From Planctomycetales bacterium (GTDB taxonomy: Bacteria > Planctomycetota > Planctomycetia > Planctomycetales > Planctomycetaceae), in NCBI GenBank assembly GCA_026400835.1, contig JAPLOA010000050.1, positions 62,001-126,000 on the forward strand: 64,000 nt of DNA, written 5' to 3'. The notes below the pieces were generated by a model. That model ran no database searches. It saw only the letters and a list, made by a program, of their open reading frames with translations, and was not told where the DNA came from. A program made the position numbers and the translations under genes. This document shows positions 42,107 through 52,143 of this stretch, in pieces. Position 1 is the stretch's first letter. Every line of letters starts with the position of its first letter.

Positions 42107-42150
42107 AATGCCCCCGCCGCGATTCGAACGCGGGACCTTCGGTTTAGGAA
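42107..42150 (-). repeat. attL: displaced 3' part of tRNA-Arg
   Basis: 44 bases identical to 52068-52111. Contains the tRNA from the first anticodon-loop base to the discriminator base but nothing of its 5' half, so it is a remnant and not a working tRNA. Identity stops exactly at the boundary between anticodon loop and stem. Confidence 0.93.
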
Positions 42151-42886
42151 TGCCCTGTCGCGTTTCGGATGGTCGGCGGATAGCCTTCAAACCGCATAAA
42201 ACACTGGGTTCCTCCGATTCGTCCCACTGGCGGAGTTTTAACGAGATCAGAAACTTTCTGCATCCTCTAAAAATTGATGTTCTGCCAGCGATACGGAACT
42301 CGTCGTGCCTGAGTGCTCCATTTCCATGGGGACTGTTGAATCATTTCGTCGGCTTCCATTCGGCCGGATGTCGCTTTGGCGTGGTGATCGAGCCGCTACA
42401 GCACTTCTGTGACGCGAACTTCTCGCGAAACTTCCTCTGAATCACCTTCCAGCGTCACGCTCTAAACCATTGCAACACAGACACTTGCAACACAGTGACG
42501 CTAGTGACGCGAAAAGTTGCTTTGTCTTTACCTTGGACAGCGTTGAGTCTTCCAGAGTACTCGCAAGGTCTATTCCCTACGACGAACTGTGAAGTGTGTC
42601 TGTGGGCCGGGCCTTCAAGCCATACAGGTCGAGGTGGACCAACTCAGATGGTGCAAACTGAATATTCAAGTCAGAAACGTACTTCTGAATCTCGCATTGA
42701 ACATTCGAAGCGTCGAACCCCCTGACCAATTCAAGAGTTAGGGAGTATTTTTTCTGCACGCCAGACGCATTTCTGAATACGTGGCCCTACCGATGTGAGA
42801 TGCATGAATGCTGCGGATCCATCAACAAAACTCTCTGGCAGGTGTCCAGTTCCAAGGCAGTCAGCTCCTCACAAAGGAAGTCCCAA
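42151..42886. other. Left-end non-coding region of the element
   Basis: No gene supported. At 42451-42502 an inverted repeat AGCGTCAC/GTGACGCT encloses two copies of TTGCAACACAG, a possible integrase arm site or origin. One open frame starting in the att repeat is an artefact of the tRNA sequence. Confidence 0.5.
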
Positions 42887-44329
42887 ATGGCTGCATCTCA
42901 ATCGTCCACTCTGGAAGATCCTGACAACAAAGTCCGTCGCCCTGAGAACCCCCGAAGAAAAGTATCGAGAGCAAGACGGAAGAAGGCCAAGACGCCGGAA
43001 TCCGATGCAGGGAAGAACATCGAATCAGTCGATGTACGGGCCAAGGATGATGCTTCCGTGCTCGGCGAATATCCGCATCTGGGGTCAGATTCCAGCAATT
43101 CTGAAACAACGATTCCTGAATCGGATCAGACGAAAGACAAGAACGCCGATCCCGCAGAGTTCTCCATCCCGTTGGCAAACGCTGGAGTTGCAACGCTCTC
43201 CAAGGCCGTGGCATCAGAATCGTCAGGCGACTTGGAAGCAAGCCAATCTCCAATATCTGATCCTCAGATTGAGGGTGCCTCGCCGAACGCAGGATCCGCT
43301 ATTGACGGGAATGTTCCGAATCGAGGAATCATTCTCGTCGACGACACCATCCGAACCGACGAAGCAGAATCAAACGAAAGCGACGAACCCGAATCAACAG
43401 AGCCCCCAGGAGATGATCAGCCGCGTGTCGTCTTGACACCGGAGTTTATCGCTGACTTCGCGAGAGCAAACGGGGTTCGCTGTTTCAGGGATCAACAGGG
43501 GGCGTTCTTCGTTTGGGTACCAGTTGCAACAAAGGACGGAACACATTTTGAATGCCATCCGAGTCGCTCAAAATCCTTTCTTGCCCTATTGCTGGAACTG
43601 ATCAGGGTTCGCTCGAACTCGTCACTGAAGTTTTCCAGAGTGAAACAGGCCATTGAGATCCTCGAGCTTGACGCTTACCGATCTCCGATGGTGAATCTTG
43701 AAAATCGCAGGGCGTCTCAGAAAGGAGTGAGCTTTATTGATCTCGGCGACCCCAAGTGGAACCTGATCAAAGTTGGCCCTGAAAAGGTCGGAGCAGACCG
43801 AATTCGAGTTCAAATGACCAAACAGTGGTTCGAGCTTCTTGAAGAAGAACATCGCGGCAGACTGAGTTTTGCCATCGATCGAGAATTCCCTGGCTATCTA
43901 CTTATTGCAACAGCAAACGACTGCGAGTGCAGGGGACACAGGGTAAGTTTTGGCAATGATACAGTAAGTGTCCTATTGAGAGCCGATGCGGGTTTAGTCG
44001 GTCGCATGTTCCCGGAACCGCCATCGTCATTTTTCACTCCTAGTGATGTATGCTTTCAAATCCATTCTACCGGTAGAAAAGTAATTTGTGTGAAATGGAC
44101 TGACATGTATGAGTATGCAGAGTCTATCAACTACTCAATGTACCAAGTTGCTGGGCGAACGGATGAATGTCCGGAACAGGTTAAGAATACGTGGGTGAGG
44201 TTGGAGTCGACGCCGTTAGGTGAAGATCATGTCCTTGATGGGAATGGCAATTCGGCAGCGGGGAAAGAACGATCGGTTTCGGATGCTATACGTGCCTATG
44301 AAGAGATCGCTGACTCAAACTCAAATTGA
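42887..44329 (+). CDS. Primase-associated-domain-like protein of the element
   Basis: 480 aa from ATG 42887, which has AAGGAAG upstream; a longer start at 42800 lacks a site. The first 190 residues are disordered, Ser/Glu/Asp/Pro rich and strongly charged. Residues of about 200-320 (FFVWVPVATKDGTHFECHPS, a helical LALLLELIRVRS stretch, VKQAIEILELDAY, GVSFIDLGDPKWNLIKV) resemble the linker module found between the primase and D5-type helicase of phage and plasmid replication proteins. No primase catalytic acids and no Walker motif are seen. The C-terminus is unrecognised. A replication role is therefore tentative. Confidence 0.6.
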   Translation: MAASQSSTLEDPDNKVRRPENPRRKVSRARRKKAKTPESDAGKNIESVDVRAKDDASVLGEYPHLGSDSSNSETTIPESDQTKDKNADPAEFSIPLANAGVATLSKAVASESSGDLEASQSPISDPQIEGASPNAGSAIDGNVPNRGIILVDDTIRTDEAESNESDEPESTEPPGDDQPRVVLTPEFIADFARANGVRCFRDQQGAFFVWVPVATKDGTHFECHPSRSKSFLALLLELIRVRSNSSLKFSRVKQAIEILELDAYRSPMVNLENRRASQKGVSFIDLGDPKWNLIKVGPEKVGADRIRVQMTKQWFELLEEEHRGRLSFAIDREFPGYLLIATANDCECRGHRVSFGNDTVSVLLRADAGLVGRMFPEPPSSFFTPSDVCFQIHSTGRKVICVKWTDMYEYAESINYSMYQVAGRTDECPEQVKNTWVRLESTPLGEDHVLDGNGNSAAGKERSVSDAIRAYEEIADSNSN

Positions 44330-44440
44330 AGCACTGTTGAGTTGAAGCTGTGGCTCTTTCCGAGTTTGAATTGAGTCCTAGGATTCGAGGAATGTTAGTG
44401 AGCTAATCGCTCATTGAGATTGCAGTTCTGAACCAAAGCG

Positions 44441-44483
44441 ACGCCTCCTTGATTCGGGTAACGAGTCTCGGAGGCGTTCTTCG
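44441..44483 (+). terminator. Possible terminator in the element
   Basis: 8-bp stem ACGCCTCC / GGAGGCGT with a 21-base loop, followed by TCTTCGTT, between the primase-like gene and the next gene. Confidence 0.5.
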
Positions 44484-44516
44484 TTCACGGATCTCACCAT
44501 TCCTCGGAGCAAACTC

Positions 44517-45095
44517 ATGTTGAAGGTCAATGTTGGACTCAGTCGGAAACTTTCACGGGACTACAACTCAACCGGGTTCAGCCTGAATCTCGAAGGAGAA
44601 ATCTGCGTCAGTCTGGATGACCCTGAAACTCTTGTTGAAAAAGTGAAGGAGTTCTACGACCTCGCTGAGGAAGCTCTGAATCAACAGATTGACCGATACG
44701 AAAGCGAATCTGCAATTGCCAGTCGAGATGAAGAAAAGCCTGTTCGCCCCGCAACAAAGGCGGCTGGAACATCAAAAACAGTTCCCGTCAATCGCATGAC
44801 GCCCCCACCAGAGAATCAGGCTGACGTCGCAACTCCCAACACTCATGCGAAATCAGCCAATGCGGACGCCGCAACCAATAAGCAGGTTCAGTATCTGCTC
44901 AATCTGGGCAAGCGTCATGGACTGACTCAGATCCAGCTCGAAAGCCGAATCGAATCCCATCTCGGCAAGAAGGCAGGCGTCTATGACCTCACCAAGCGAG
45001 AAGCGGGCGACATCATTGATGTGCTCAGTCAGAACGGAGCACCAGCATCAAACGGGAATGGTCACAATCGAATCAGCCGCACGGGAAAAGCCTGA
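44517..45095 (+). CDS. Element protein resembling phage ssDNA-annealing accessory proteins
   Basis: 192 aa; GGAGC seven bases before the ATG. The N-terminal 60 residues (LKVNVGLSRKLSRDYNSTGF, then SLDDPETLVEKVKEFYDLAE) form a small conserved domain I do not recognise. A polar Pro/Ala linker follows. The C-terminal 60 residues (ATNKQVQYLLNLGKRHGL and the VYDLTKREAGDIIDVL helix) resemble the small tail domain found on Erf/Rad52-like annealing proteins. It overlaps the next ORF by one base. In context it is likely part of a recombination or replication cassette with the nuclease two genes on. Confidence 0.6.
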   Translation: MLKVNVGLSRKLSRDYNSTGFSLNLEGEICVSLDDPETLVEKVKEFYDLAEEALNQQIDRYESESAIASRDEEKPVRPATKAAGTSKTVPVNRMTPPPENQADVATPNTHAKSANADAATNKQVQYLLNLGKRHGLTQIQLESRIESHLGKKAGVYDLTKREAGDIIDVLSQNGAPASNGNGHNRISRTGKA

Positions 45096-45340
45096 TGGAT
45101 CCTCAGGCAGCATGGAATGAAATGCTGACCGCCATCCATCAGAAGGACTGGAAGCAAGTCTTCGAATTTGCAGAGGCACTTCTGTCATGGATGAAGCACG
45201 GCGGTTTTCCTCCTCAGACTACGGCAGTCACCATGCCGGCCAAATGGAACCGAGCTCACGCGGAGTTCGGTTGTCTGCAGGCTCTTCAACTAGTGAAACG
45301 GGCACGAAAACGTAAATCGCGAAAGGAAGCCAATGAGTGA
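45095..45340 (+). CDS. 81-aa conserved-type small protein
   Basis: Acidic-helical N-terminal half (WNEMLTAIHQKDWKQVFEFA, then LLSWMKHGGFPP) and a basic C-terminus (KRARKRKSRKEANE). The GGFPP ending of the helical part recurs in my memory of small proteins from planctomycete mobile elements; function unknown. It overlaps the preceding gene by one base and the nuclease gene by eight, so the three are translated together. Confidence 0.7.
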   Translation: MDPQAAWNEMLTAIHQKDWKQVFEFAEALLSWMKHGGFPPQTTAVTMPAKWNRAHAEFGCLQALQLVKRARKRKSRKEANE

Positions 45341-46181
45341 CCGACCCCACTGGAGCTACAGTTCCATCAATCAATATCTCCGTTGCCCGCTGCAGTACTT
45401 CTTTCAGCGGGTACTCGGAATACCCAGTCGATCCATCAGCAGCGGACTTGTGCTGGGGTCTGCAGTTCATGCGGGATTGGCCGAGTATCACCGGCAACTG
45501 AAAGTTCAGGAGGCCATCGATCACGACGGAATCCTGAGAACATTCCGTGAATGCTGGAGTGGAAAAGAGGCCAAAGAAACCGTCGTCTACAAGGATGGAG
45601 ACAATCGCCAGGATGGCATCGAACAGGGAATTCACCTTCTGGAGCTTTATCTTCAGCAAGCTCCCCCGGAAGGCATCGTCGCCATTGAAGAACGAATCCT
45701 CGTGCCGCTCTATAACAGTCACGGCGAGTATCTGGAAACTCCACTGGTGGCAATCGCCGACCTGATCACGTCAGTGGAGGAATCTTTGACCGTGAGGGAA
45801 TTCAAAACCAGCGGTCGAGCTTACTCGTCATCTGACGTGGAATCATCACTGCAGCCAACCTGCTACGTCCATGCGGTTCGCCAGACTTTCGGCAAGGAGG
45901 CAAATGTCGAATACACGGTGCTGGTGAAAACGAAGACGCCGAGGGTCCAGCGAATTCAGACGGCCAGATACGCGGAAGACTGCGGCCGCCTGGGAGATCT
46001 GGTGGAGACCATTCAGCGAGCCGTGGATTTCAACGTCTTTTATCCCGTTGAAAACGCCATGAACTGTTCAACCTGTGCCTACCGACAACCATGTCGGGAA
46101 TGGGGGCAGGGAACAAAGTCGGAGTCCAATCTGGTCCAACTGGAAATTCCACAGGAGGTCGCACTGTGCTCACTGAATTGA
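45333..46181 (+). CDS. PD-(D/E)XK nuclease with Fe-S cysteines, RecB/AddB/Cas4-like
   Basis: 282 aa. Nuclease motifs: His46 in GSAVHAGL, Asp143 in AIADLI, Glu156-x-Lys158 in VREFKTS, and the Q174-x3-Y178 helix in LQPTCYVH. Four cysteines, Cys18 in LRCPLQYFF and Cys245/Cys248/Cys254 in NCSTCAYRQPC, match the iron-sulphur staple of AddB and Cas4 nucleases. Such enzymes resect DNA ends. There is no helicase domain and no cas1/cas2 or CRISPR array nearby, so a phage-type recombination exonuclease role is more likely than CRISPR adaptation. Its end overlaps the next ORF by 16 bases. Confidence 0.88.
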   Translation: MSDRPHWSYSSINQYLRCPLQYFFQRVLGIPSRSISSGLVLGSAVHAGLAEYHRQLKVQEAIDHDGILRTFRECWSGKEAKETVVYKDGDNRQDGIEQGIHLLELYLQQAPPEGIVAIEERILVPLYNSHGEYLETPLVAIADLITSVEESLTVREFKTSGRAYSSSDVESSLQPTCYVHAVRQTFGKEANVEYTVLVKTKTPRVQRIQTARYAEDCGRLGDLVETIQRAVDFNVFYPVENAMNCSTCAYRQPCREWGQGTKSESNLVQLEIPQEVALCSLN

Positions 46182-46972
46182 ACGGCAAGGGTGGCTGTGT
46201 TTGTGAACCAGCTCGAAAAGGCGAATTGCGATGCCCGCTGATCGTCCGGCCCACCAGCGAAGACGTTGTTACCGGAGAACTCTTTGGAATTCTGAGAGTT
46301 CTCAACGCTCGCTGGTGGCTGCCGGACCTGTTGAATCATGCTCTGGGGTCAGAACGATTTCATCGCCAGGTTTTTCGGGACCTTCGCATCGAACTCTGGC
46401 AAAAACAGCGAACTTATCCCCGACAACATCTGGAATGGACTGAGGGACAAACGGAAGTCGACTGCGTCATCACATGGGAGATCGCGTCAGAGACTCCAAT
46501 CCCCAGACCCGAGTCCACGGAGCATGTCAGAGTTTTCTTCCCGAAGTTCTTCGAGGAATCTTTCCGGCGGAAGAAACTGGAAACGTTTTTTTCTTTGATG
46601 TCCCCGGCCATTGGAATGGATGAAATTCGCTCGAATCCCTCTCGCTTCGTGATGCTCTTTCGGCCTAGCATGATGGACAGCGACTTCGGTGGACGCCTTC
46701 CGGAACTCAGTAGGTGCCTCTACTCGCGTTGGTCCGGGTATCTGGAGCAGACGGAATGGCAGACGACGAAAATGAAGCTTCAGGAAGTTTCAGGCGACCT
46801 GATCGAAGCTCATACCAGCGGCCACATCTATCATGATGACATCATTGAATTCGTCAAACAGATCAACGCGAAGACAGTGATTCCGATCCACACCTTTGAG
46901 CCCGAGAAGTTTGCGGGCGTCATGTCAGGTGTGCGACTGCTGGCCGATGGCGAGACACTGAATCTCAGTTAA
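46166..46972 (+). CDS. Chimeric ORF: element N-terminal domain fused to the tail of an MBL-fold protein
   Basis: 268 aa from GTG 46166, preceded by AGGAGGT. Residues 1-105 (LTELNGKGG, then GILRVLNARWWLPDLLNHAL, QVFRDLRIELWQKQR, VDCVITWE) look like the start of a conserved element protein that probably continues into a nuclease-type domain, but the sequence breaks off there. From about 113 on (FMLF-type block RFVMLFRPSMMDSD, EAHTSGHIYHDD, VIPIHTFEPEKF, LADGETLNLS) it is the C-terminal third of an RNase J/beta-CASP-like MBL protein, without the HxHxDH metal site. The frame is open throughout. A deletion joining two genes is inferred; activity is doubtful. Confidence 0.7.
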   Translation: MLTELNGKGGCVCEPARKGELRCPLIVRPTSEDVVTGELFGILRVLNARWWLPDLLNHALGSERFHRQVFRDLRIELWQKQRTYPRQHLEWTEGQTEVDCVITWEIASETPIPRPESTEHVRVFFPKFFEESFRRKKLETFFSLMSPAIGMDEIRSNPSRFVMLFRPSMMDSDFGGRLPELSRCLYSRWSGYLEQTEWQTTKMKLQEVSGDLIEAHTSGHIYHDDIIEFVKQINAKTVIPIHTFEPEKFAGVMSGVRLLADGETLNLS

Positions 46973-47703
46973 TCCTTCTTGGGCGTGGGTGGCAACCATA
47001 ATGTCGTCGTTCGAAAATCTGTGGCTGCAAATTTCACACAGACAGACGGGATAAACGAGTCTCCCACGGCTGCCAGCAGTGGCCAATCTTTGCCGCGAAT
47101 GCTGCGGGCGTGCCGACTTGAATAATAGGCTTCAGGGGCAAGGACAACGAGTGTTGGGCGAACTGTTGTGCTGGGCACAACTCCGCTGAAGTCATCTGGA
47201 ACGGGGTGTTGCCGAGAAGAGATCCAAGTATTGAAACCGATGAGAATCTTCTCGAAGTTTTTATTTCGCAGGAGGCAGGCGAGATAATCCAGTCCTTCAG
47301 TAATCGCGATGATCGGAGCGTCTCCACTGGCTCTCTTCGCTTCGAACACCACAATCCCCCCGTCGCTGGTCATTCCAACGAGGTCCGCTCTGCGTCCCAT
47401 CTCGCGGACACCTCCCTGAGTTGGCCACTGAAACCCGAGCAGCCAGATTCTTTGTGATCCAAGTTGCAGACAACCGTCATCGGCGAGAGCCAGGCGGTAC
47501 AGCTGAGCAACTAATCGCTCCTCTTTTTCTCCCTCATCCAAGCAGTGGTCGTCTCGATTTTTGAAGACGTCGCCTTTGTACCACTCATCGATGGACCGCT
47601 GACGCTGAAACTCGGAGTCCAACGCCGCTCCAAGCAGCACCGGCCACAAAGGGCGGTGACCACGTACGTTCCGAAGTTGCTCCAGCCAGATTCGAAAGCT
47701 CAT
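46969..47703 (-). CDS. PD-(D/E)XK-type endonuclease-like protein, opposite strand
   Basis: 244 aa. The core GRRADLVGMTSDGGIVVFEAKRA gives Asp107 and Glu121-x-Lys123, followed by AITEGLDYLACLL at the expected helix with Glu136 and Tyr140, a convincing PD-(D/E)XK signature. The C-terminus is unrecognised. It is the only minus-strand gene of the element and overlaps the stop codon of the chimeric ORF by four bases. An accessory gene, perhaps for defence or restriction, is inferred from its orientation and position; there is no methylase partner. A 200-bp repeat-rich region separates it from the divergent HTH gene. Confidence 0.72.
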   Translation of the reverse strand: MSFRIWLEQLRNVRGHRPLWPVLLGAALDSEFQRQRSIDEWYKGDVFKNRDDHCLDEGEKEERLVAQLYRLALADDGCLQLGSQRIWLLGFQWPTQGGVREMGRRADLVGMTSDGGIVVFEAKRASGDAPIIAITEGLDYLACLLRNKNFEKILIGFNTWISSRQHPVPDDFSGVVPSTTVRPTLVVLAPEAYYSSRHARSIRGKDWPLLAAVGDSFIPSVCVKFAATDFRTTTLWLPPTPKKD

Positions 47704-47921
47704 GAAGATCTCTCAATACGATCAAATATCTTGAACGTATTGGAATCACTTACCGTGCCAACTGTGGGGCACAACCTTCAATCGCCCATGAATCCCCATG
47801 AATCCCGCACTGCTTAATGGCAGTAGTGCCCACAGTGGTACAGGCGGTGACCCAGTGGTGTCACTGCTAAGAAATATCGTCCCAGTACAAACTTCACCAA
47901 GAAGCAGAGTACGTGACGGAC
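47704..47921. promoter_or_regulatory. Divergent control region of the element
   Basis: Contains an imperfect inverted repeat CCAACTGTGGGGCAC (47758-47772) / GTGCCCACAGTGG (47826-47838) and a 10-bp tandem CCATGAATCC (47786-47795, 47796-47805) between two divergent genes, one of them a HTH protein. A likely operator region. Confidence 0.5.
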
Positions 47922-48329
47922 ATGGCAAAAAAGCAAAGAACAGACGCAGACCGCAGAGTCCGTCAATGCGAGCGACTAGGGCGACTTCTCCGGGTGTTGC
48001 ACCTGATCATGGGCAGAGGCCGGTGGGACGTCAACACTCTCGCCGCCGAACTCGAATGCTCTAAGAGGACGGTCTATCGTCTCCTGCAAACCCTTTCATT
48101 AGCCGGTGTCCCCTGGTACTTCGACGAATCATGCCGAGCCTATCGAGTCCGACCGGGATTCAAGTTCACAGGGTTGGACGGACAGGCTGAGACTGCTCAA
48201 CCAAAGATCGATTCAGCGTCTTTGAACCTTGCTGCGAACAAGCTGCTGCATGACGGTGAGAAGTTCATGGAATCACTGAGATCTTTTTGTGACCAACTCA
48301 ACGGCAAAAGAGTCGAGTCGCAACGGTAG
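47922..48329 (+). CDS. HTH (DeoR/WYL-type) DNA-binding protein without effector domain
   Basis: 135 aa from ATG 47922. Residues of about 15-75 form a winged HTH: RLGRLLRVLHLIMGRGRW, VNTLAAELECSKRTVYRLL, LAGVPWYFDESCRAYRVR, the N-terminal domain of WYL/DeoR-like regulators. The remainder is a short helical tail; there is no WYL domain. It probably binds the repeat-rich region just upstream and controls the element. Confidence 0.8.
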   Translation: MAKKQRTDADRRVRQCERLGRLLRVLHLIMGRGRWDVNTLAAELECSKRTVYRLLQTLSLAGVPWYFDESCRAYRVRPGFKFTGLDGQAETAQPKIDSASLNLAANKLLHDGEKFMESLRSFCDQLNGKRVESQR

Positions 48330-48632
48330 ATCCAGATGAACTTGCATCAAGATGTTGAGTAAGAACTCCTCCAGCATGATGCGACGACAATTCAGAGCCT
48401 GTTGACGCCGCGATGCCGATCACGTCTGGTCTCGAAAGCCCTCCCACAATTGAGACCCAATATAACTCCCACAGGCTGGGAATACAGCAGACTGCCACCT
48501 CACTGGACTGGCACATTTGCTCAAACAATGCTTCGTCACGAACGTTTGCGATATACTGATTCACAGTGCTGACACGTTTCATCAACCCAGCCCGGATAGG
48601 TAAGACGCTGAACCACTGTTCGGAGAATTGTT
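48330..48632. other. Gap inside the element
   Basis: No supported gene; a minus-strand frame of 95 codons crosses it but has no resemblance or clear ribosome site. Confidence 0.4.
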
Positions 48633-49283
48633 GTGGCTGACTCTGACATTGAAGCCTTCGATGACTACTGGCGGATAATCTTGCGGAACGAGGAGTATCT
48701 CAGGCAATGGGGACACAATGCTCGCCCCACGAGGGAGCTTGAGTTGCATCAGGATCTTGAGGATGCCTACACGCGAGTTCAACCGCTATTGAGTTCCGTA
48801 ACACGGCAAAGGCTGTTCCCTGATCTTCCCTTTGGCCATCACCCATTTGCTGCGGACAATTTTCACCACGCACTGGTGAAGTTACTGAATCCGCCTGAGA
48901 ACTGGTTCGAAAGGGTTGGAGTTCTGACGTCTCCAGAGTATTTCGCCATCAAGCAGGGGGCCGTGGACGAGGAAAAGGTCATCTGCCTTGGTGCCATCGC
49001 CGTCAGTGGGCCGACAGCCTTAGTTCCAGAAGCCACTGTGCCTACGCTGGATGACCTGAACACAACGCAACGAAAGATTGTCAAGGCGTTAGACCCCAAG
49101 GTTCCTCGAACGTGGGCTGATGTAGCACGCCGAACAAAACTTGAAGTGAATACAGTTTGCAAACAATCTAGGTTTCTCCAAGATGCCGGAATGATCCAAA
49201 AGGTGCCAAAACGTCGTGGTTTCCTTCGACTCATCCCATTGCCCGGAGAAGTTGCGAATATGGATTCAGATGTGAATCCATAA
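48633..49283 (+). CDS. Winged-helix-type element protein, paralogue 1
   Basis: 216 aa, GTG start. The N-terminal 110 residues share a block with the next gene: HHALVKLLNPPENW, then GVLTSPEYFAIK. The C-terminal 80 residues (LDDLNTTQRKIVKALDPKVP, TWADVARRTKLEVNTVCKQS, FLQDAGMIQKV) are a plausible winged-helix DNA-binding domain. I know no named family. Unclear role; a pair of regulators or replication-initiator-like proteins is possible. Confidence 0.65.
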   Translation: MADSDIEAFDDYWRIILRNEEYLRQWGHNARPTRELELHQDLEDAYTRVQPLLSSVTRQRLFPDLPFGHHPFAADNFHHALVKLLNPPENWFERVGVLTSPEYFAIKQGAVDEEKVICLGAIAVSGPTALVPEATVPTLDDLNTTQRKIVKALDPKVPRTWADVARRTKLEVNTVCKQSRFLQDAGMIQKVPKRRGFLRLIPLPGEVANMDSDVNP

Positions 49284-49388
49284 AACACTCCATTCAACGA
49301 TCAGATTTTCTACTTCATAGTTCCCGCGTTCCACAGAGTCACCTCCATTTCGGAGATCGACCAGCGGGAACGTTTTTGGAGAAGAAAC

Positions 49389-50168
49389 GTGCTGACAAGA
49401 TCAATTACCAAGAAGAAGTCTCTGAATGTCTTCGCAAACGCCATCGACAGATTTTGGCTTTTTGTCGAACGTATGGAGCGGGATGTCCGTGAGAACTCAC
49501 ACCGTGGACGTCTGCCCCCATGCTGCATGGGCGATCCATGGGATGAGGAGTTTGCTCAGGCCTACCAACTCTTGGCACCTCATCTAAAACGATATCGTCG
49601 GCCTCGCTATATCCAAGTTCCTGCCGATCTGGCCTTCTTCCATGGTCCATTGCGGGCGGAGACGGCTCATCAATCGTTAATGTTTTTCCTAAACCCTGCA
49701 GGTGAATTGTACGGTGAGGCCGGCGTCCTTGATTCACCAGAGTACATCGCGATCAAGGAAACTGCCATGGCCGAATTGGAACAGCACCAAGCGGCACGAA
49801 TCAAAGCGAAAGCAAAGCCAAAATGTTCGAAGGATTCAAAAACGTTGGTCGAGCTAATTGAGCTCAAGGCTCACCTGCGGGACCATCATTTTCCTAAGGG
49901 CAAGCCCGACTGCAATATCGTATTGGGGCTCAAAGAACTCCAGGAACACTTCGGTTGGTCGCAGTCGAAAGTGACGAGAAGGATGCAGGTATTGTTTAAG
50001 TCTCCGGACGCGATGGATTCGTACAACGCAGTCTTTGCATCCCCTGAACCGCCCAAAGGGTACAAGAAGGTGCTTGACGACGCGACACTGGATGTCGATG
50101 CCCTCTGGTTTGATCGCTCAAGCGACGAAGAAGATGAAGATGACGAACAGTGTTCCATTGCCCGATAG
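49389..50168 (+). CDS. Winged-helix-type element protein, paralogue 2
   Basis: 259 aa, GTG start with GGAGAAG upstream. Shares with the preceding gene the layout DLAFFHGP..HQSLMFFLNP and GVLDSPEYIAIKE. A charged linker with KAKAKPKCSKDSK follows, then an HTH-like segment (VLGLKELQEHFGW, SQSKVTRRMQVLF). The C-terminal tail is very acidic (SSDEEDEDDE). It is 105 bases downstream of its paralogue. Confidence 0.65.
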   Translation: MLTRSITKKKSLNVFANAIDRFWLFVERMERDVRENSHRGRLPPCCMGDPWDEEFAQAYQLLAPHLKRYRRPRYIQVPADLAFFHGPLRAETAHQSLMFFLNPAGELYGEAGVLDSPEYIAIKETAMAELEQHQAARIKAKAKPKCSKDSKTLVELIELKAHLRDHHFPKGKPDCNIVLGLKELQEHFGWSQSKVTRRMQVLFKSPDAMDSYNAVFASPEPPKGYKKVLDDATLDVDALWFDRSSDEEDEDDEQCSIAR

Positions 50169-50464
50169 TGTTCGCTCTTGAGCTCCGATCCTGATCTCGT
50201 CAATGCAGAATTGAACTGCTGACGTCATATGGCCGTTTCCTCTGTCAGTTGGACTTGCAGGGGGCGGCCATTGTTCTTTGATGCCGCTCCGTTCACGCGT
50301 CGTCCATTCTGCGAAAAAGGCGATTTTGAATACGTCTTAATTTGTGTTGACGAATGAACTGCACGTGAAACATCGGGAGTTTCTGTCTTCTTGCCCGGGT
50401 AAATGTGAATGGCTCCGCTGCTTTTGGAATGCCTCATTACCACTGCAGCAGAAAGGCTCACAAG

Positions 50465-50701
50465 ATGGCGGCCCACGATGAATTGAATTCCGGTGTGATT
50501 AAACCAGACGAGCTCTACACCCTTCAGGCGTTCACACGGCGGCTGGGCATTCAGGCCGCGACATTGCGATCCGCTCGGAGAGCCGGACTTCGCGTGTTCT
50601 ACGTCCACAAACATGCCTACGTTTACGGACGAGACTGGATCGAATACGTCCTCAAATCCAAACCTCGTCATGAGAGCTCATCTTCTTCAGATTCAGTCTG
50701 A
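50465..50701 (+). CDS. Excisionase-like HTH protein
   Basis: 78 aa from ATG 50465; an earlier start at 50405 lacks a site. The core IKPDELYTLQAFTRRLGIQ, then ATLRSARRAGLRVFYVHKHA, is the MerR-like winged HTH of excisionases, ending with a Ser-rich tail. Located 52 bases before the integrase gene, the usual place of a recombination directionality factor. Confidence 0.75.
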   Translation: MAAHDELNSGVIKPDELYTLQAFTRRLGIQAATLRSARRAGLRVFYVHKHAYVYGRDWIEYVLKSKPRHESSSSSDSV

Positions 50702-50753
50702 CCTGTGTGAGTCATTCCCCATCCGCAGACTGGAACATGGAGGAATCTCTTAC

Positions 50754-52019
50754 ATGGCACATCGTAAGCAAAAACTAGCAACGCCGGTCCGGAATCCAAG
50801 TGTCCGTATTGTTCGACCCTCCGGGCGACCATTTCAGTTACGGTATACCTGCCCAGTCGAAAAGCGAGAGGTACGCATTTCTACCGGAGGCCGCGATGAG
50901 CAAGAAGCCATTCGGCTTCGGAAGGAACTGGAGGCAAAGCTGCTCTTGGGGATCGACACAAAGCCCGGCAAGCTGAGAATGACGGGTCCAGAAATGGAAT
51001 GGTCGGATTTCCGGGAACAGTATCGAACACTCCACCTCACCTCCGTTCGAGAGAGCACTGCAGCAGACGCTGAGAGTCGACTTGATATTGCGGAGAGGAT
51101 CATCAGTCCAAAGACTCTTGGAGATGCGGCCGATGCCGCAACACTGCAGCAGCTTCAGGCGAGACTTCTCGCTGGAGAACAAAGTGTACGAAAAGGTCCG
51201 AGATCACCACACACGGTCAAGGGATACATGGGGTGCATTCTGGGGGCCTTGAATTGGGCGTACCTTCAGAATTGGTTGCCTACGCCCCCGAAACTCCGCA
51301 AGATCAAGACTTCAAAACAGAAGACGATGAAGGGGCGTCCCGTTACCAAAGTGGAATTTCAGGCAATGCTCAATGCCGTCGCATCAGTTGTTGGAGACGA
51401 TGCTGCAGAATCATGGAAGTATGTTCTGAGAGGCTTGTGGGAGTCAGCACTTCGCATCAATGAGCTGATGAGTGTCTCCTGGGACAAACAAGGAGCGATC
51501 CGGCCACGTTGGCAATCAGGGTCACATCCAATTCTGGAAGTACCGGCCACGATGCAGAAGAACAACTCGGACGAGGAGATCCCATTGCTACCCGGCTTCG
51601 AGGCACTCCTGCTGGAGACGCCGCCAGAACTTCGAACAGGGTGGGCTTTTGAACCGCAATCACTCCAGAACAAACTGGGGCGAAAAGTGCGACATCAGCG
51701 TCCGGACTCAGACTGGGTGGGAAAAGTCATCAGTCGAATCGGTAAGGAGGCCAACATCGTCGTTGAGCCCGGTGACAAGAAGCTGGGCAGGGGGGTGAAG
51801 TATGCATCTGCACATGACCTCAGACGATCTTGCTGCGAGCAACTGCGTGAGTCAGGCGTGCCGCCACTGGTGATTTGCCGAGTCATGAGGCATTCCTCAT
51901 GGGAGACAACACGGAAGCATTACGCTCCCGGAGACGTTCAAAAAGACGCGATCGTGCTCAGAGACCTTTTGGTCCCGAAGGGCAACAAAGATCCAGATGT
52001 ACCCAGATCCGACACCTGA
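50754..52019 (+). CDS. int: Tyrosine recombinase (integrase)
   Basis: 421 aa from ATG 50754, which has GGAGGAA nine bases upstream. The N-terminal arm-binding and core-binding domains (about 1-190) precede the catalytic domain with Arg234 (SALRINEL), His354 and Arg357 (ASAHDLRRSC), His380 (MRHSSWETT) and nucleophile Tyr390 (RKHYAPGD). It points at the tRNA-Arg gene and ends 48 bases from the right att repeat, so it is the enzyme that placed the element. Related integrases are common in planctomycete genomes. Confidence 0.95.
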   Translation: MAHRKQKLATPVRNPSVRIVRPSGRPFQLRYTCPVEKREVRISTGGRDEQEAIRLRKELEAKLLLGIDTKPGKLRMTGPEMEWSDFREQYRTLHLTSVRESTAADAESRLDIAERIISPKTLGDAADAATLQQLQARLLAGEQSVRKGPRSPHTVKGYMGCILGALNWAYLQNWLPTPPKLRKIKTSKQKTMKGRPVTKVEFQAMLNAVASVVGDDAAESWKYVLRGLWESALRINELMSVSWDKQGAIRPRWQSGSHPILEVPATMQKNNSDEEIPLLPGFEALLLETPPELRTGWAFEPQSLQNKLGRKVRHQRPDSDWVGKVISRIGKEANIVVEPGDKKLGRGVKYASAHDLRRSCCEQLRESGVPPLVICRVMRHSSWETTRKHYAPGDVQKDAIVLRDLLVPKGNKDPDVPRSDT

Positions 52020-52067
52020 AAGGCGTTGTACCTGGGTACACCAGAGATCACGAATTGACGTAAGTCT

Positions 52068-52143
<76 letters not shown>

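Follow-up and report, generated by a model that had tools for sequence, protein, structure and literature searches.

An in-frame hybrid of a nuclease-like protein and a beta-CASP metallo-hydrolase in a planctomycete tRNA-Arg element as a probable deletion scar

Within the 64,000-nucleotide stretch of Planctomycetales bacterium DNA analyzed here (the window), one open reading frame on the forward strand (46166-46972, 268 aa) joins residues 1-105 of a PD-(D/E)XK-like protein of about 257 aa, which we refer to as NucN, to the C-terminal 163 residues of a beta-CASP metallo-hydrolase of about 435 aa, which we refer to as MBL. We consider it highly probable (about 0.9) that this fused ORF was left behind as a scar when a single internal deletion occurred in an element integrated in a tRNA-Arg gene, and that the join fell in frame by chance.

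The two parts of the ORF match separate protein families with zero overlap. Residues 1-105 (46166-46480) are 80-86% identical to the beginning of complete NucN relatives of 253-258 aa, while residues 106-268 (46481-46972) are 66-74% identical to the end, from residue 272 onward, of complete MBL relatives of about 434-435 aa. The original prediction of an in-frame chimera of two protein types is thus borne out, as is its estimate of about 105 residues for the N-terminal half (exactly 105); its figure of about 155 for the C-terminal half was too low, the true length being 163. In a Pfam search of the fused ORF the sole domain found was RMMBL near the C-terminal end (E 6.2e-5, above the cut-off), and there was no match in NCBIfam or PHROGs. 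Translation would begin at a GTG codon that lies 7 nt downstream of an AGGAGG Shine-Dalgarno sequence (46153-46158), and the ORF start overlaps the end of the upstream Cas4-like gene by 16 bp. The retained frame and strong ribosome site noted at the outset are therefore both real, and because the same AGGAGG precedes the NucN start codon in G019, in G018 (copies G018a and G018b) and in L040, we regard the ribosome signal as that of the ancestral NucN gene.

Both halves are cut short of the motifs on which catalysis would depend. The PD-(D/E)XK fold calls for a D and, one strand further on, an E-x-K; the fusion keeps the EVD strand of NucN, whereas the E-x-K strand (IEMK in most relatives) is cut off at the junction and the following roughly 150 residues are missing. 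It had been predicted that full-length relatives of the N-terminal half would continue with an E-x-K motif after VITWE, and this is what the alignment contains (VITWENPATTVFIEMKY): in complete NucN relatives VITWE is followed by NPATTVFIEMKY, which includes the E-x-K strand, with the general pattern VITWENPxTTVFIEMKY. Complete NucN can be classed as PD-(D/E)XK-like on the basis of this motif and of weak profile matches only, as it weakly resembles the PADLOC candidate PDC-M15A and, with an E value of 0.03 that misses the cut-off, Pfam DUF234; it has no sequence match in the PDB, and an AlphaFold model of the complete protein, built from 3 sequences, reached a pLDDT of 34, a quality insufficient for comparison of folds.

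The C-terminal half had been described as the end of an RNase J/beta-CASP-like protein lacking its metal site, and our results agree. The RMMBL domain, HTSGH and PIHTFEPEKF (the PIHTFEP motif) are all retained, as in the C-terminal part of RNase J-like beta-CASP proteins; unlike these, the fusion holds residues 272-435 only, without the N-terminal MBL domain and the HxHxDH metal-binding site. Complete MBL-type relatives (433-435 aa) carry the MBL domain first and have the predicted HxHxDH ahead of the C-terminal part in the form SHAHEDHTG, with SHAHxDHTGL present in all full-length relatives aligned. These complete proteins match EF2904, the closest solved structure (PDB 2az4, E 6e-23), and bacterial RNase J (E 1e-11). 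Judged from the sequence, both catalytic motifs are gone from the fused ORF, and because E-x-K and HxHxDH are both missing, neither parent's catalysis would be expected of the hybrid.

The fused ORF lies inside a 10-kb element bounded by 44-bp identical direct repeats, of which attL (42107-42150) is a copy of the 3' part of a tRNA-Arg gene and attR (52068-52111) lies inside tRNA-Arg(CCT) itself (52070-52143, reverse strand). Upstream of the fusion, all on the forward strand, are a homologue of p188, a conserved core gene (44517-45095, 69-72% identical to p188 of two G018 copies), a homologue of p81, a small conserved core gene (45095-45340, 59-66% identical to the G018a copy), and, directly before the fusion, a Cas4-like PD-(D/E)XK nuclease (45333-46181, Pfam PDDEXK_1 E 1e-28, with 73% identity to its orthologues in G019 and G018a). 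Downstream follow NucC on the reverse strand (46969-47703), a gene with a D...E-x-K-like stretch that is 36-38% identical to the genes found after MBL in G019 and G018b and has the same position in L043; a short HTH protein, the next conserved gene (47913-48329, +, 65% identical to the G018a copy in the same relative position); an excisionase-like small protein, the xis97 homologue (50405-50701, +, 65% identical to the G019 gene, no Pfam match); and, preceded by the latter, a tyrosine integrase (50613-52019, +, Pfam Phage_integrase E 3e-10, 68% identical to the G019 integrase). By its att repeats and integrase the element can be classed as a tRNA-integrated mobile element. In these features and in its excisionase-like gene it resembles tRNA-integrated tyrosine-integrase elements with defence cargo, and it differs from them in apparently being a reduced 10-kb form, from which the interval occupied by cargo in relatives is deleted. 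Two further proteins of the element (48633-49283 and 49389-50168) both match G235 p262 (45% and 32% identity over parts of their length) and are probably diverged duplicates with C-terminal HTH-like regions. Between 42150 and 44500 there is no counterpart of the DUF932 gene that most relatives carry upstream of p188; its place is taken by a 509-aa ORF (42800-44329) that partially matches an ORF of G019.

Comparison with related elements locates the junction and indicates what is missing from it. NucN and MBL are complete, separate genes in relatives, with NucN upstream of MBL on the same strand in G019, two copies in G018, G235, L040, L043, G526 and G480, and gene order is kept on both sides of the join, from p188, p81, the Cas4-like gene and NucN through to MBL, NucC, HTH, xis and the integrase. 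In DNA alignments to L043, L040, G019 and G018a, similarity changes partner at 46479-46482, which places the junction at about 46480-46482; the DNA matches of L042 and L041, relatives with a single half, also end or begin there. At most 2 bp (GA) at the join are common to both parent sequences, and a repeat search found no repeat associated with it. In intact copies the two break positions are separated by 4,401 bp (L040), 6,700 bp (L043), 8,388 bp (G235), 9,569 bp (G019) or 18,381 bp (G018a), and this interval contains a WYL regulator and small genes, in most copies also a DNA polymerase III alpha-like fragment, and in a subset of copies cargo for defence against phages. The suggestion of a deletion scar that joins two genes of a larger ancestral element is well supported by these separate, complete and collinear parents.

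The deletion can be pictured as follows. An ancestral element would have had the order p188, p81, Cas4-like gene, NucN, an interval of DNA polymerase III-like fragment, WYL regulator, small genes and possibly cargo, and then MBL, NucC, HTH, xis and integrase. Illegitimate recombination between NucN codon 105 and approximately codon 272 of MBL would have removed the interval (4.4 kb long in L040, the shortest intact case), presumably in a single step by a microhomology or blunt mechanism; a junction with GA only and no repeat fits such an event. The NucN start and ribosome site would now drive a 268-aa hybrid that is expected to be without enzymatic activity and is probably unstable, and the in-frame join would be a matter of luck, since two end-points share the same reading phase 1 time in 3. 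We infer the one-step event by comparison with relatives outside the species, at a DNA identity of about 73%. The element in the window appears to be a reduced copy that lost the NucN-to-MBL interval.

The fused architecture was found in no genome other than the window's own among 170 genomes of the host family, a phylum sample of 392 genomes and the scanned genome contigs; the occurrence of this 268-aa architecture in other strains, which the original prediction had named as its refutation, was thus not observed. A search by gene order gave the same 170 genomes as the family search. In the family and phylum searches, matches to residues 1-110 were numerous, as were matches to residues 104-267 or so, but outside the window no single frame contained both; the two halves are present in 11 other genomes of the host family, each time as separate matches, and residues 1-268 are matched by the window only. 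Short-frame matches to the C-terminal half in G528, G468 and G004 were considered as independent truncations and rejected, as all lie at contig ends. Viral contigs contained no relative. Protein searches of the window's own genome with full-length NucN and MBL, which covered the missing parts of both, returned the fused ORF as the sole match and no complete copy of either gene.

The chief alternative is that the hybrid was born of the deletion and is now under selection, for instance by binding, as a catalytically inactive decoy or regulator, to partners or substrates of either NucN or MBL. The open frame with its strong inherited ribosome site would suit this reading, and amino-acid change is not relaxed in either half. 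For non-synonymous change, dN on the window branch is 0.055 versus 0.041 in the N-terminal half (difference -0.015 to 0.052) and 0.103 versus 0.115 in the C-terminal half (difference -0.034 to 0.011), and the window copy alters 0 of 31 otherwise invariant columns in MBL and 1 of 33 in NucN; the dN/dS test is limited by synonymous sites near saturation. We count the open frame and the lack of excess amino-acid change against the scar, given that a constrained new protein would look the same. A recent deletion would nevertheless yield the same substitution pattern, and the rates suggest that little time has elapsed without constraint, fitting a recent deletion and a constrained product alike. 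The original prediction had also called for a structure prediction of the join; the predicted model of the fusion, made from a shallow alignment, has a mean pLDDT of 45 without any confident region, which was too poor for a fold search and does not favor a selected product. Because the fusion occurs in one genome only, cuts through both folds and could have kept its frame by chance, a recent scar is the simpler reading, and we regard a selected hybrid as improbable. Slightly less probable again is its most far-reaching form, in which one deletion would have created a new protein, translated, stable and under selection because, without catalysis of its own, it regulates the element's nucleases or acts on them as a dominant-negative partner; a new regulatory protein had been proposed beforehand as the alternative to a scar, and this proposal found no positive support.

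A misjoining of two distant parts of the genome during assembly is very unlikely. The genome is a draft of 112 contigs, which leaves room for such errors, but it is 99.99% complete and the lost half of neither gene turns up elsewhere in it; moreover, the join lies in the interior of a contig of 136 kb, the element genes to its left and right are collinear, and it is not associated with a repeat. That the fused form is ancestral and the relatives' two genes arose from it by splitting can be effectively dismissed, as no point in its favor was found, the split state occurs in many genera, and the separate genes each encode in full a domain that is missing from the fusion, so that domain content refutes it.

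The probable scar illustrates cleanly that an integrative element which loses an interval can gain an in-frame hybrid ORF, one that annotation could mistake for a genuine short MBL or nuclease protein. The element family itself, whose NucN-to-MBL interval is occupied in several relatives by cargo for defence or of another kind, merits more attention than the fusion. Its recurring planctomycete core (p188, p81, Cas4-like, NucN, interval, PolIII-like, WYL, MBL, NucC, HTH, xis, integrase) was seen in the window (42107-52111) and at L026, L027, L028, L030, L031, L033, L036, L043 and L068. We found no description of this core in the literature searched and, within partial literature coverage, no paper on the element or the fusion. 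The cargo after NucN consists of Mza genes with a DrmMII-like methylase in G018a, a Septu-type PtuA ATPase in G001 and SspC with SspD in G273; judged by sequence, it is an IS21-like pair in G019 and comprises apparent metal efflux genes in G018b (about 65 kb). In G235 a type I restriction enzyme is encoded upstream, and a tRNA-Arg gene lies near the element in G019, G235 and G018b.

Several other observations concern the relatives. A protein of about 350 aa (L030, 13172-14251, reverse strand, with homologues in L026/L027 and L043) has a match to DNA polymerase III alpha that is confined to the NTPase and finger parts, and directly precedes the WYL regulator in most intact copies. In G014, of the same genus as the window, locus L066 retains a NucN remnant of about 40 residues and is otherwise free of core genes in its vicinity; it may represent an element in a more advanced state of decay. 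The element is otherwise found mainly in the window's family, and the L040 contig, which is titled Candidatus Kuenenia stuttgartiensis, is possibly mis-binned.
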